A stretch of 38,816 nucleotides of DNA from contig JAAXHO010000159.1 of NCBI GenBank assembly GCA_012270795.1, forward strand, positions 416 through 39,231. The letters are read 5' to 3'. The DNA is from Candidatus Poribacteria bacterium. GTDB taxonomy: Bacteria; Poribacteria; WGA-4E; WGA-3G. This document shows positions 27,396 to 34,509 of the stretch, one piece after another (the stretch's first letter is position 1; the number at the start of each line of letters is the position of its first letter). The notes below the pieces were generated by a model. The model was not told where the DNA came from. It did no database searches and worked only from the letters and a program-made list of their open reading frames with translations. The position numbers and the translations under genes were made by a program.

Positions 27396-27998
27396 CTATT
27401 CTGAAAGTGTTATAACACCACAACTCACTTGCGTGCCATCTGCTAAACTACCAGTTCCAACCTGTTCGTGAATGACAACCACTTTACCGAGTATATCGGT
27501 TGATGGATTGGTGTCAAAAGTGAGGTCAGTGAGGTAACTATTGATCCCTACACCATGTTCATCAGTTGTAAAAGAATAGGATTTAAATCCTTCAACATCC
27601 CAGATACTACCAGGCGCATCGCAACTATTACCAGTATAGATATATGCTGCGTACTTACGGCCAGGGACCGCATTCTGAATCTCAACATCAAAGTTCTGAA
27701 TCTTATATGAACCGGAGGATCCTGTATCTGAATCTACATATTCCATAAAAATCGCTGTACCGGTAATCCCACTGCCATCCTTTTCACCAAGTGTTACTGT
27801 AACTGTTCTGTTTAGATCAAGAAAACCTTCGTCAAAAGCTTCAAGCAGCCTTGTTGAAAAACGTGATGATGAACCGCTTTCACAGCCTATAGTGAAACAC
27901 GCTGCAAGGATAAGAATAGCTAACATGGATAACGCCTTATGTTTTACCGTAAAGACATTTTGTACGCCACAATAAAGGACGTTTAAATTTTTGTACAT
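27396..27998 (-). CDS. Cu/Zn superoxide dismutase-like lipoprotein lacking most metal ligands
   Basis: 200 residues. A hydrophobic stretch (26-38) ends in the lipobox FTIGC with lipidation at C39, so the mature protein is membrane-attached. The body follows SodC order: VPGRKYAAYIYTGNSCDAPG aligns with the SodC segment around HGFHIHE-G-C, and GKVVVIHEQVGTGSLADGT with VSCGVI aligns with the C-terminal VVIHAGxDD...ACGVI. The structural cysteine pair (C126, C193) and one ligand-like H177 are kept, but the HxH copper ligands are Ala/Tyr. Dismutase activity is therefore unlikely; a structural or metal-handling role is possible. AAGGA precedes the ATG; an internal Met25 is an alternative start. Confidence 0.62.
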   Translation of the reverse strand: MYKNLNVLYCGVQNVFTVKHKALSMLAILILAACFTIGCESGSSSRFSTRLLEAFDEGFLDLNRTVTVTLGEKDGSGITGTAIFMEYVDSDTGSSGSYKIQNFDVEIQNAVPGRKYAAYIYTGNSCDAPGSIWDVEGFKSYSFTTDEHGVGINSYLTDLTFDTNPSTDILGKVVVIHEQVGTGSLADGTQVSCGVITLSE

Positions 27999-28002
27999 TT
28001 TG

Positions 28003-28391
28003 CATTTTCCTTTTCTTACGCCAAAATTTGGCGGTTTTGGTTAATTTGTTCTCCGTTTTGGAGACTTCGTTTATTCAATAAAAGAGACATGCCCTTGCAT
28101 CTGTCCTCCAAATAAAATATTATCTGGTAAACTTCAGGTGCCCTATAGAGTTTATGAACTAAAAAGATCGGGCATATCTCATATCCCCGTAAAACAACGG
28201 GGACGTTCTTTGCGTTAGACTTTAGTTATACTAAAGTGCTTTGTTAACTTTGTCAAAGTTACGATTGACTTCTTTAGATGTAAGTGCGGAGGTTTAAAGT
28301 CTCCCCGCAAGACTCAAAACGTTTTTTGTTTTAACTCATTCGGTGGATTCTTTCTCTACACGCGTCCACCTCTCGCGAGTCCTTGGTGGCT
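28003..28391 (-). other. Hairpin-rich intergenic region, possible IS200/IS605 (tnpB) end remnant
   Basis: Five stem-loops lie between two minus-strand genes. Perfect stems are CGCCAAA/TTTGGCG (28019-28033), CCCCGT/ACGGGG (about 28184-28202), ACTTTAGT/ACTAAAGT (about 28219-28237) and AACTTT/AAAGTT (about 28246-28260). TGCGG/CCGCA lies near 28285-28309. Upstream of them on the minus strand, one frame reads TKDSREVDACRERIHRMS, a stop, then SCGETLNLRTYI, which recalls the ragged C-terminus of TnpB followed by its structured right end. This is a weak resemblance; the region may instead be the leader of the SodC-like gene, whose start has a hairpin 20 bases upstream. Confidence 0.35.
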
Positions 28392-31300
28392 TTACTGTGG
28401 AAAGTCTTCAAGCCCAATAACCTGCAAACCGCTGTTTTCAGTACCGACATAAAGTATGCCATTGGAAACAGTGATAGAAGTAGCATCGTCCAAAATTTCT
28501 GGTGTTATCCGTTCCCAAGTGCTATCTGCACTTGTTAATCGATACACGCCACCTTGAACATTTTTTGAAGTACACACAGCATATAAAGTTGTGTCATCCA
28601 AAGCAAAACGGTCAAATATCAGCTGTTGTCCGTCAAAATCGTTGATAATGTTCCATTTCGTGCCATCGTTTGAATGCAAAGCACCTTTGTCGGTAGCAAT
28701 GTAGACGGCTTCGTCAGTGATGAGTATCTGCTTGAAAGAATCAACAGATATTGGTAGCGGGACGGTTTTCCAATTACTCCCTCTATCAACAGAGTGAAGT
28801 AAAATACCATCAGGTTTGCCAACGTAGACAGTGTCACCAGAAACCCCAAACTTGAAACTATTAGGAGAAGTTAAGTCTGCAATGTCGCGAGTATCTTCTA
28901 TCTTGGTATCGGACCAACCTGTGCCGTTGTTCATTTGAGATGAAGGATTCCATATTAGAAGTTTCCGTCTGCGTTCAACATAGAACGTGTTCCCGCTCAC
29001 AGCAAATGCCCCCAGAAATCTGTTCCCATGCTGAGGAATTTTCCTTGCAAATTGCTGGCATTATTTTCATTTGCATCCTTAATTGCATTCATAAATTCTG
29101 CTATGAGATCCCTTTCACCAAAGTCAGGAACACCTTCGACCGGGACAAGCGTCCCATTTTGTTCGTCTAAACGAAAAAACTCTGGTTGAAAAACAATGTG
29201 TCCCTTTGCGTAAAGAATTCCATCTGCTTCTAATATTTGTTGTATTCTTACTATTTGTTGTGTTCTTGCCTTGGAGAGCGGGTGTTTAGTGTTGAAAAAA
29301 GTTATATGCGTCTCATCAGCATTCACAGGAATTGCGTTCCATGACCGTCCACCGTCAACTGATGTAATAAGTTTATCATCCGCTACTGCGTAGAGTTTAT
29401 TCTTAAAGACAGTTAGATTTTGTATTTTGCCACCTAATCCTGTATTAAATCGTTTCCATGAATCACCGCCATCGGTTGACCGGCGGATTCCGTTGCCATC
29501 CCCTATGTAAAATTGGGACTTGGCACTTGTAGTGTGCTGTTGATTAGGGGATTCATCGTTGCTTTGGACTTTCAAAGCAGCAACAACACTCATACCTGAA
29601 AACCTTTTGTAAGGAGCTGCTTTATCAACGAGCATCCATGTTTTCCCCTCATCCGTTGAGCGCAAAATATCCTCGGAACCTATTAACACCACCGTTTTTC
29701 CTGCAGCAACAATCTTGAGAGTTGTAGATATTTCATCTTTTTGAAAATAGTTTTTTGGTGTAATATCTGTCCACGAGTTACCTTGATCTGTTGATTTAAA
29801 AACTTTCCATATATACAGTTGACTTAGAGGTGTCTTCGCCATCGCCGCAATATCTATAAAATTCATATCAGCCGTAATTTTGCGATTTCCTACAAGAACA
29901 TAAAGACGATGTTCAGACACTGCAAATGCGTGAATAGATTTAGATTCCGCTACCAGTAACTTTTCCCACACACCCGATCTATCAAGACCATCTTCCGAAT
30001 TCGGTTCCGGGTTGAAGCGGAAAAGTCCTCTATCGGTACCAGCAAATAGTGTATTTTCATGAGAGGTTAACGTATAGATTTTTCTGAATGCCAAACCTTT
30101 TTTTAGAGGTGTCCAAGAGATACCTGCATCATCAGAGTAATATATTCCCTGAAGAAGCGCGAGGTAAATTTCAGTAGAACCTTGTGCATTATCTTTTACG
30201 ATCAAGTCCATTGCCCGTCCTTTCGGACGAGGACCGAGAGATTTCCATGTTTCACCTTTATCTTTTGAAGCGAAGACTGCCTCGTCAGTCACAATATAGA
30301 GAATATCATTTTGCTCAGCTATCGGCATCTTTCTGTGTGTGATAGGGAGGTTCCTGTTGATTAAGTGCCACCCTTTGTTTGCAGTCGTCAATCGATAAAG
30401 TCCTATTGGTGTCACCGCATAAAGGTCATTTGTTTTCGTGGCAAATAGCGTAGATATTTTTACCGGATCAGGGCTGTCAAATTGAGTCCACCGTTCCGTT
30501 GAGAGTGGCACCTCTGTTTCAATCGTTGGAATAACATTGGTAAAATTTACGTTTTGAGATGTGTCCACTTTTTCACCAGTGCCTTGACTTTTACTGGAAA
30601 TATCGGTGGTTCCGAGTTGATTACGCGAATCAGGTTTTATTTTTCGGACAGCACTAACAGGCGTATCAACAATTTCAACCGTTAACATTGATTCGGAATC
30701 GAGATCGTACGGTTGGAAAGAGATCGCAAGGTGTTGGACTCCAATACCTATTAATAATAGAACCAAAATAGCAGAGGCAGCAGAAACTAACCACGGTAAA
30801 AAAGGCTTGCTGCTTGATGGAACAATAGGATTGATGCGCGAGGTCTCCTTTATTATATTTTCTGTAAATTGTGTTGGTAGTTGAAAACTGCTAAGGTTTT
30901 CGCGAATTATCGCTTCCTCTTTCCTTAAACGGTTGCGCGCGCGACTGAGTCGGCTTTTAATCGTATTTGAGGACACACCGAGCATCTTGCTAATTGCTTC
31001 ACATGTCATTTCTCCAAGATAGTGGAGTGCCATGACTGTGCGTTCGCTCTCAGGCAATTTTTTGAGCAGTTTTTGGACGACTTCGCGCCGGGCTTCAGCC
31101 GCTTCAGTGTCTCGTTTCTCTGCCATATATCGTGAATGTGACACTTGATCAATCTCCGCAACGTCGGTAGTTTCTAAAGATTGGGTCGGAACCTTCTTTT
31201 TTCGATGCCATTCGGTGCATAGGTGAGACGCAATTACATATATCCACCCCGGAAACAAACTGTGGTCTTTCAAAGTCCTGAGTCTTTGATAAGCTCTGAG

Positions 31301-31459
31301 AAAAGCATCTTGCGTAATTTCTTGTGCAATATGAAAATCCCCGATTTTGCGCCAGGCAAGTGCGTGAATTCCCTTTTGATATTTTTCAACGAGCTCGGTA
31401 AATGCCGTTTGATCACCGTCCAATGTCCGCTGAATCAGTTCAGGATCGTTATTTTGCAT
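28392..31459 (-). pseudogene. ECF sigma factor fused to a membrane helix and Asp-box beta-propeller, frameshifted near the 3' end
   Basis: The start is taken at ATG 31459 (GGAG eight bases upstream) rather than the GTG at 31468. Residue numbers count from that GTG. Sigma region 2 (about 15-90, ITQDAFLRAYQRL) and sigma region 4 (about 127-182, LGVSSNTIKSRLSRARNRLR) are complete. A single transmembrane helix (224-247) and a flexible linker follow. The large extracytoplasmic propeller has Asp-boxes SKDKGETW, SDDAGISW, STDQGNSW, STDEGKTW, STDGGDSW and SVDGGRSW. The frame closes at 28997 but propeller sequence (LGAFAVSGNTFYVE, then SVDRGSNW) continues in the -1 frame to 28392. One missing base between 29009 and 29027, perhaps in the five-G run, would restore about 1020 residues. 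Alternatively a GTGA overlap makes a second protein. Confidence 0.8.
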
Positions 31460-31693
31460 AAAAAGCACTCCGGAGTGGTATCACTACTTAATTAAAGTGA
31501 CGAGTTTTAAAATTAAAAAGGTTGCATTATTTTTGTGGATTTTATAGCAAATCCAAAAAATCCGCCATCGGGGAATAACACGTGATTGTAAAATTCTAAG
31601 TTGTTGTTCAAGTTGTACCCAAGTTTATAGTTTAGACGTTAAAATTATAGAATAATTTACCATTAAAATTGGCAAAAAAATGGAGTTAAAAAA

Positions 31694-33649: not shown

Positions 33650-33673
33650 GCGTATGCATCCTACGCGTTTTTT
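33650..33673 (+). terminator. Terminator after the PorV-like gene
   Basis: GCGTA, 7-base loop, TACGC, then GTTTTTT, 12 bases after the stop codon. The right arm includes the TAG stop of the convergent amidohydrolase gene. Confidence 0.55.
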
Positions 33674-34509
33674 ATCTTGTAGAAATCTAAAGCATTTTGG
33701 TAGAAAAGTCGGTTTTTTTCTGCATCGGACGCATCGTCAATAGCCGAGAGTAGTGCTTCTAACCACTCACGGTATTTGGCAGCTAAGGTGCAGACAGGCC
33801 AATCGCTGCCAAACATGAGTCGCTCAAAGCCGAAGATTTCTACAAGATGATGGATGTAAGGTCTTAGTTCTTCAGCTGTCCAGTTTTCACTGGCAGTTGT
33901 CACAATACCTGATACTTTGCAGTAAACATTTTCAAAGGTGGCGAGTTCGCGCATGTTGGTAGCCCACGGCTCAAACACTCCATCTTTTATGTTCGGACCG
34001 CCACAGTGGTTGACAGCATGTTGGATCTCAGGTGTCTTTTTCACCAGTTCTACTGCAGCAGGAAGTTGATCGTGTTTCGCACAGAGGTCAAAAGAGAGGT
34101 TATATTTCGCCAATAATTTCACACCGTTCATAAGTTCGGGAGTAGCGTAAAACTGATTGTCCGTGTGGTGCCATGCCATTCGACGAATACCCACGACGAG
34201 ATCAAACGCCGCAAGTTGTTCCAAAATAACCTCAACATTTGGCTTTTCCAGCGGTGCTGCGGCGACAATGGCACCTATCATCCCATCTGTTTTTGCGATG
34301 TTCGTTAGTCATTCCACTTCTCGCACAACATGAGTCTCGGCAGGATCACCTTCCACATGAACAGATTTGACGACGTTTATGTCCACGATAGCATCACGGT
34401 AATCCTGTGGTGTGTATTTCTGTTGGAGTAGGTCAAATCCCTCTAACCACGGATATTCTAAAATAGAGGTATCCCACAGATGTTGATGTGTATCAATTAT
34501 TTTTTGCAT
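33661..34509 (-). pseudogene. Amidohydrolase (amidohydrolase_2 family) interrupted by an in-frame TGA
   Basis: The 5' part (34509-34312) encodes MQKIIDTHQHLWD, carrying the metal-binding DTHQH, and ends VVREVE followed by TGA at 34309-34311. Reading straight on gives LTNIAKTDGMIGAIVAAAPLE in the same frame, then GIRRMAW, HCGGPNI and GFERLMFGSDWPVC with the late active-site Asp, to a TAG at 33661. Relatives have Trp at the interruption (E-x-x-W-L), so TGG-to-TGA explains it. The intact product would be 282 residues, normal for this TIM-barrel hydrolase family (lactone- or dicarboxylate-type substrates). GGAGG precedes the ATG. TGA ends other genes here, so it is presumably a true stop. Confidence 0.85.

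Follow-up and report, generated by a model that had tools for sequence, protein, structure and literature searches.

The DNA analysed here (hereafter the window, 38,816 nt) comes from Candidatus Poribacteria (assembly GCA_012270795.1, contig JAAXHO010000159.1, positions 416 to 39,231 of the forward strand), and belongs to a draft genome with 298 contigs. On the minus strand, an open reading frame (ORF) of 823 aa (28997-31468), whose probable start codon is preceded by a Shine-Dalgarno-like CGGAG, encodes a sigma factor fused to a transmembrane (TM) helix and a propeller (Table 1). The sigma part contained regions 2 and 4 only, both past their family cut-offs, as is typical of ECF (group 4 sigma-70) factors. 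PF04545 and PF07638 also scored above the Pfam cut-off in this ORF, and the NCBIfam model TIGR02937 (sigma70-ECF) matched with 95.1 bits vs. a cut-off of 42.9. The hydrophobic helix occupies residues 225-244 approximately, and its 19-residue hydropathy was about 2.5 in the ortholog L021. The propeller part of the ORF matched Sortilin-Vps10 (E 4e-16) and BNR (E 3e-9) of Pfam, and six Asp-boxes were legible in it.

Table 1. Coordinates of the fusion gene and of associated features in the window.
Feature	Position	Strand	Basis or remark
ECF-type promoter TGCAACC(-35)...AAAACTCGTC(-10)ACTT, AAC-N18-CGTC, towards the sigma gene	31495..31526	-	Near-identical at 8/8 orthologous loci
Sigma-TM-propeller gene, frame-shifted copy	28997..31459	-	ATG 31459, stop 28997
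Sigma-70 region 2	31193..31393	-	Pfam PF04542, aa 26-92, E 2e-10
Sigma-70 region 4	30926..31084	-	Pfam PF08281 (Sigma70_r4_2), aa 129-181, E 2.9e-14
Juxtamembrane segment with amphipathic helix SSFQLPxxLTENIMxEI, probably cytoplasmic	30824..30910	-	Conservation; predicted helices
Single transmembrane helix	30737..30796	-	Invariant flanking Pro, SAASA patch, invariant Gly
Juxtamembrane motif FQ-PY--SE-TVEI-DAP----KPD-RNQ-G, probably extracytoplasmic	30605..30736	-	Conservation across unrelated ectodomains
Asp-box tandem propeller, predicted GH74-like fold, split by the frameshift	28395..30490	-	AlphaFold, Foldseek, profile match
Single-base deletion relative to ortholog L021	29010	.	Comparison with L021
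ORF with the C-terminal propeller part	28392..29000	-	GTG overlaps the TGA stop of the upstream ORF
Conserved structured RNA in the gap between fusion gene and lipoprotein gene	28084..28180	-	97 nt; two inner hairpins within an 11-bp closing stem
Downstream lipoprotein gene, lipobox FTIGC	27396..27998	-	Sole neighbour kept at 7/7 orthologous loci

The initial annotation of this DNA had described sigma regions 2 and 4, one TM helix, a linker and the Asp-boxes as lying in one frame across 28392-31459. All of these parts are present, but the frame is not continuous. A single missing base, which makes a run of five C and is the only net frame-changing difference from L021 inside the gene, moves the final ~200 residues to another frame. 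This frameshift may have inactivated the copy in the window, or it may reflect a sequencing error. The fusion is nonetheless genuine. All seven close Poribacteria orthologs have one unbroken ORF of 1022-1049 aa, and 61 full-length relatives keep the same order, each with a sigma domain, a TM helix at residue ~220 and 3-7 Asp-boxes. Separate sigma and propeller genes, which would have pointed to an artefact of assembly, were not found in the relatives, and an artefactual fusion is excluded by the intact orthologs and full-length relatives together. That the window holds a pseudogene or a sequence error within a family that is otherwise functional is suggested by the run of five C and by four paralogs in the same genome (L102, L104, L105 and L108) that are likewise split by frameshifts or stops, through decay or assembly error. 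We consider it improbable as an account of the locus, given that the sigma domain, TM helix and promoter are intact, that the core is 94% identical to that of L021 and that both ORFs remain open; in a draft of this kind, an error is also as likely as a mutation.

The family is abundant in this phylum and may be confined to it. The best 75 loci from a scan of one genome per species were all from Candidatus Poribacteria. An 82-residue query comprising the juxtamembrane, TM and post-TM segments (the chassis) matched 68/85 genomes of the phylum; it was found in 59/59 genomes of the family to which the window belongs, with 1-62 copies each, and in 0 to 3 copies in the other families. The closed chromosome G007 (5.3 Mb) encodes 18 copies with full sigma domain and chassis plus five relatives that lack the TM chassis, and the closed chromosome G082 (6.7 Mb) encodes 56 and 18, respectively. 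Ordinary ECF factors are distinct from this family, with only ~22-36% identity.

The chassis was compared over 87 copies with differing ectodomains. Beyond region 4, the conserved elements were the helix NLTENIM-EI, KP--PW at the entry of the TM helix and LMLG near its end, followed outside the membrane by RFQ-PYS-A-SE-TVEI-DAP----KPDVRNQ-G. Among 64 Asp-box members, the mean entropy of the post-TM segment was 1.03, compared to 0.85 for sigma region 2, which is similarly conserved, and 1.5-1.9 for the much less conserved propeller. That ectodomains with no relation to one another have this outer segment in common hints at a shared interactor, for example a protease or a lid. In the full-length model of L021, the sigma domains had a pLDDT of about 85-90 and the helices at residues 182-191 and 198-206 were predicted at ~80; residues 213-306, which comprise the TM helix and the post-TM linker, were under 50, and the coupling of sensor to sigma domain is not visible in the model.

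Only ~35 residues separate region 4 from the TM helix, and a zinc-finger anti-sigma domain would not fit there. No anti-sigma family was found among the Pfam matches or the NCBIfam top 25 of the window protein, no conserved Cys was found between region 4 and the TM helix in the alignment of Asp-box members, and no anti-sigma gene was recognised near the fusion gene. These results agree with the earlier proposal that the protein works without a separate anti-sigma factor.

From hydropathy and from the sigma domain's need for the cytoplasm, the sigma domain should lie inside and the propeller outside. A cytoplasmic propeller, with a hydrophobic stretch that is not a membrane helix, would be compatible with L107, L230 and L231, in which a propeller comes straight after the sigma domain with no TM helix between them. 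We regard this arrangement as very improbable for the chassis members, nearly every one of which has, at a fixed position, a stretch with a hydropathy of 1.6-2.7, Pro-flanked ends and an invariant Gly.

What lies beyond the membrane varies widely. In the 74 full copies of G007 and G082, the outer part contained Asp-box repeats (8 + 24), WD40 repeats (5 + 15) or other domains (5 + 17). Pfam matches among the last included Kelch, Reg_prop, leucine-rich repeats, CarboxypepD_reg with C-type lectin, PD40 and an M16-like domain, and several were unnamed. The class of ectodomain switched at least 22 times on a tree of the sigma domains, which is a quick tree with many weak branches; when its starred branches are taken alone, Asp-box must have changed at least 6 times and WD40 at least 9 times. 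Copies with a TM helix carried binding or repeat domains, and TM-less copies carried mostly other or enzyme domains. In three of the latter (L258:320-1114, L202:329-1495 and L264:320-1474), the sigma core is in frame with a DNA polymerase III beta clamp (DnaN), called from a Pfam match for L258 and by eye for L202 and L264, which look alike. Further TM-less copies had methyltransferase, S9 peptidase, thioredoxin-like, M61 or crystallin domains.

We also noticed copies in which the sigma domain is lost but the juxtamembrane helix, TM helix and ectodomain are kept (L106:1823-3076; L301, from G007:C1:3044376 on; and L302, from G007:C1:1691877 on), which are possibly decoys or co-receptors. A reading of L106:1823-3076 as a lipoprotein was weakened by a better start with a ribosome site upstream; its LLSGC may therefore just be part of the TM helix.

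The AlphaFold model of the L021 ectodomain, built from 61 sequences, had a pLDDT of 80 and a pTM of 0.72. In a Foldseek search with this model against PDB, the top matches were GH74 xyloglucanases (2cn3, E 8e-22; TMq 0.56-0.60 over ~850 columns), followed by two periplasmic sensor domains from Bacteroides (BT4673 and BT4663), with PorZ lower. The sequence profile ranked the families similarly, with E 8e-24 for GH74, about 1e-6 for sialidases and a far weaker match for sortilin. By Foldseek and profile match, rather than by blade count, the ectodomain is thus predicted to have the tandem-propeller fold of GH74. The sialidase-type propeller of the initial annotation has to be revised in this respect: GH74 is closest, sialidases (GH33) rank lower, and Asp-box propellers are only one ectodomain among many.

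While the ectodomain is like that of the GH74 xyloglucanases in being a tandem propeller, their conserved catalytic Asp pair was not found in the Poribacteria fusion. With moderate certainty, no Asp reached 90% conservation in the corresponding stretches, whose positions were deduced with the help of a partial HMMER alignment. Since no conserved Asp stands at these catalytic places, binding is more likely than hydrolysis as the function of the ectodomain. The predicted fold, of a ligand-binding type, lends support to the earlier suggestion that the ectodomain serves as a sensor. The Bacteroides hybrid regulators (HTCS) BT4663 and BT4673 likewise place an extracytoplasmic glycan (heparin) sensor on a one-piece regulator, but their output is a kinase, whereas that of the Poribacteria fusion is a sigma domain.

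Eight orthologous upstream regions have TGCAACCTT-...-AAAACTCGTCACTT in common, and the sequence farther upstream diverges. The TGCAAC-N18-CGTC in this element, which precedes the fusion gene at all eight loci, contains AAC at -35 and CGT at -10, the hallmark of ECF promoters (PMC8103513). The promoter of the window occurs with 0 mismatches at one place in the genome. In its general form, TGCA[AC][CT]-N17..19-[CTA]GTC, the promoter was found upstream of 71/91 family members and own paralogs, compared to 0.1 in dinucleotide shuffles, with a peak of spacing at 18; this contrast overstates independence because the 91 upstream sequences are related. Upstream of the copies in the closed genomes, the general form was found for only 28/74 TM members and 10/23 TM-less members. 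When one exact form was searched in whole genomes, 6/7 matches in the window's genome (G000), 5/6 in G007 and about 10/20 in G082 preceded genes of the family. The reversed control pattern had 4 matches in G007 and 2 in G082, and a control with a spacer of 17 had one exact match in 13 genomes vs. 7 with a spacer of 18. Because the promoter stands upstream of many copies, including that of the window, and is rare elsewhere, autoregulation is likely. To judge from these sequence patterns, the fusion sigma factors are likely active and auto- or cross-regulated; the motif could also be read by one common sigma factor and not by each protein itself.

That the clearest matches precede family genes would also be expected if the sigma domain mainly drove its own gene, in a self-amplifying cassette whose working product is the ectodomain, as an adhesin, a binding protein or a surface scaffold. 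The high diversity of fusion partners, including the enzymes in TM-less copies, and the sigma-less copies described above are compatible with such a cassette. The promoter is, however, also found before genes outside the family in G082, where further matches lie before genes for an ABC ATPase, two exported proteins and a STAS-domain protein, and the membrane chassis, which cargo alone would not need, is strongly conserved. We therefore see the cassette as a credible but unlikely explanation.

The STAS-like protein in G082, which looks by eye like an anti-anti-sigma factor, has a family-type promoter about 200 bp upstream (L286, G082:C1:1305472), and a regulatory link is possible. In the window's genome, an exact family promoter (L144:4023-4052, G000:C111:80022) lies before a broken gene that by eye has a lipoprotein-like start and then, in another frame, a SpoIVB/S55-like part. 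A peptidase S55 at C111 was dismissed as a regulon member, given that the gene is merely broken and has no Pfam match.

The divergent PorV-FlgD-SPOR gene had been put forward as a candidate target, with the advice that ECF-type motifs be mapped upstream of nearby genes including 31469-31693. Such a motif does lie upstream of the sigma gene, but none was found towards PorV-FlgD-SPOR: the sole ECF-type promoter in the intergenic region faces the sigma gene. The divergent gene adjoins the fusion gene at 4/7 orthologous loci (L021, L022, L024 and L025), is ~5 kb off in L035 and was not found within 6 kb in L023, and the upstream sequence of L026 is too short to tell. On adjacency and motif, we no longer consider it a target. 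The downstream lipoprotein is the best local candidate instead. Its immediate upstream region yielded no TGCAAC-N18-CGTC-type promoter, so the lipoprotein would be reached by read-through. It has a weak Cu/Zn-SOD-like similarity (E 0.02).

In the gap between the two genes is a putative structured RNA. With an extra upstream hairpin, the region (28080-28208 of the window, minus strand) folded with an MFE of -47.7 kcal/mol (z -5.3). Counterparts were found at L021:9146-9274, at six other orthologous loci and at L065:3232-3352, and in the genomes searched there was one copy per genome, solely at the fusion-lipoprotein locus. As covariation is slight, the structure rests mainly on folding energy. 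No Rfam match was found around the fusion gene and the structured RNA.

We propose, with a probability of roughly 0.6, that the fusion proteins are one-polypeptide transmembrane sigma receptors that are activated by proteolytic release and subject to positive feedback. The sigma domain would reside in the cytoplasm, one helix would cross the inner membrane, and the GH74-like propeller would lie outside and bind a ligand that might be a glycan or glycoprotein, either from the sponge or from the envelope. Binding would expose the juxtamembrane or TM segment to a common RseP-type site-2 protease and so free the sigma domain. The free sigma domain would then act on TGCAAC-N18-CGTC promoters, first on that of its own gene, as positive feedback, and probably on a small further set. 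A chassis that is kept across unrelated ectodomains is what would be expected of a shared membrane step fed by exchangeable sensors. The genome encodes an M50 site-2 protease in which, as in RseP, a long insert parts the two halves; M50 proteases were found in 14/14 control genomes, and their presence is for that reason weak evidence. The existence of TM-less members indicates that the sigma core is usable without a membrane tether as well.

The sigma domain might instead act while tethered, with the holoenzyme assembling at the membrane, close to nascent targets, and its activity being tuned by the ectodomain via conformation or clustering, so that no cleavage takes place. No anti-sigma domain was recognised, hence release may be unnecessary, and the small-residue SAASA patch of the TM helix could mediate dimerisation. 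A tether this short (~35 residues from region 4 to the membrane), however, leaves the polymerase little freedom, and the sole studied precedent of this layout, IutY, is freed by Prc and RseP (PMC8999054). Tethered activity is, in our judgement, a little less likely than even the self-amplifying cassette.

The principle of joining sigma factor, membrane helix and sensor is not new, because ECF52, ECF48, ECF53 and IutY have already been described. In ECF52, such as SCO4117 of Streptomyces coelicolor, a sigma factor, a TM region and an extracytoplasmic carbohydrate-binding module form one chain, for which positive autoregulation has been suggested and activation by proteolysis proposed (PMC5826349; PMC8999054). 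Like ECF52, the Poribacteria fusion carries sigma, TM and outer binding domain on one chain with no separate anti-sigma factor, and it shares with ECF52, ECF48 and ECF53 a C-terminal TM helix and an extracytoplasmic extension. Unlike in these groups, no ZAS-type zinc-finger anti-sigma domain was found between its sigma domain and TM helix. ECF52 has such a domain and a proline-rich linker, whereas the Poribacteria fusion has no zinc finger and carries propeller or repeat ectodomains; ECF52 is single-copy in S. coelicolor and found in Actinobacteria only, compared to 1-62 copies per genome here.

In the cellulolytic Clostridia, the SigI/RsgI systems comprise many paralogues with a shared signalling core and exchanged extracellular polysaccharide-binding domains. 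Their sigma factor and membrane anti-sigma sensor are, however, two proteins, while the Poribacteria fusion is one. Sigma-I paralogues are also mentioned in PMC10575876. IutY of Pseudomonas putida (ECF243) is a sigma factor fused C-terminally to a membrane-bound anti-sigma part (PMC8999054); neither its TonB cell-surface signalling system nor its anti-sigma portion was recognised in the Poribacteria fusion. ECF57 of Planctomycetes has WD40-like C-terminal repeats, and its regulation is suggested to proceed by protein interaction (PMC8999054). It is likewise an ECF sigma factor with a C-terminal beta-propeller, to which the Poribacteria fusion adds a TM helix between the two as well as Asp-box and other ectodomains.

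The novelty lies in ectodomains made of propellers or repeats, in having no recognisable anti-sigma domain, in sensors that are exchanged on a shared chassis and in how many copies a genome carries. No description of sigma fusions in Poribacteria was found in the literature searched, the partial coverage of which does not by itself prove novelty. An analysis of Poribacteria single-cell genomes reported many WD40 and leucine-rich repeat proteins, some with TM helices, and left sigma factors unmentioned (PMC3909097). GH74 was reported to rank second in abundance among the carbohydrate-enzyme families of Poribacteria (stated in PMC6081418), and part of that count could be the receptors proposed here. 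Our tentative broader view, held at somewhat less than even odds, is that these are modular, phylum-specific receptors, which pair one sigma/TM chassis with exchangeable ectodomains, number up to about 60 per genome, each act on their own ECF promoter and need no anti-sigma factor, and that many "GH74 enzymes" are sensors. If so, one-piece receptors would replace much of the usual sensor and anti-sigma machinery, an arrangement described so far in a few single cases, and would offer sponge symbionts a route to reading many host or envelope molecules. How a sigma factor stays off without an anti-sigma domain would become testable, and synthetic receptors could be modelled on this naturally modular chassis.

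Elsewhere in the window, the amidohydrolase ORF at 33661-34281 matched Pfam positions 82-289 only, its N-terminus being missing or in another frame, and its relatives had the same aligned extent.
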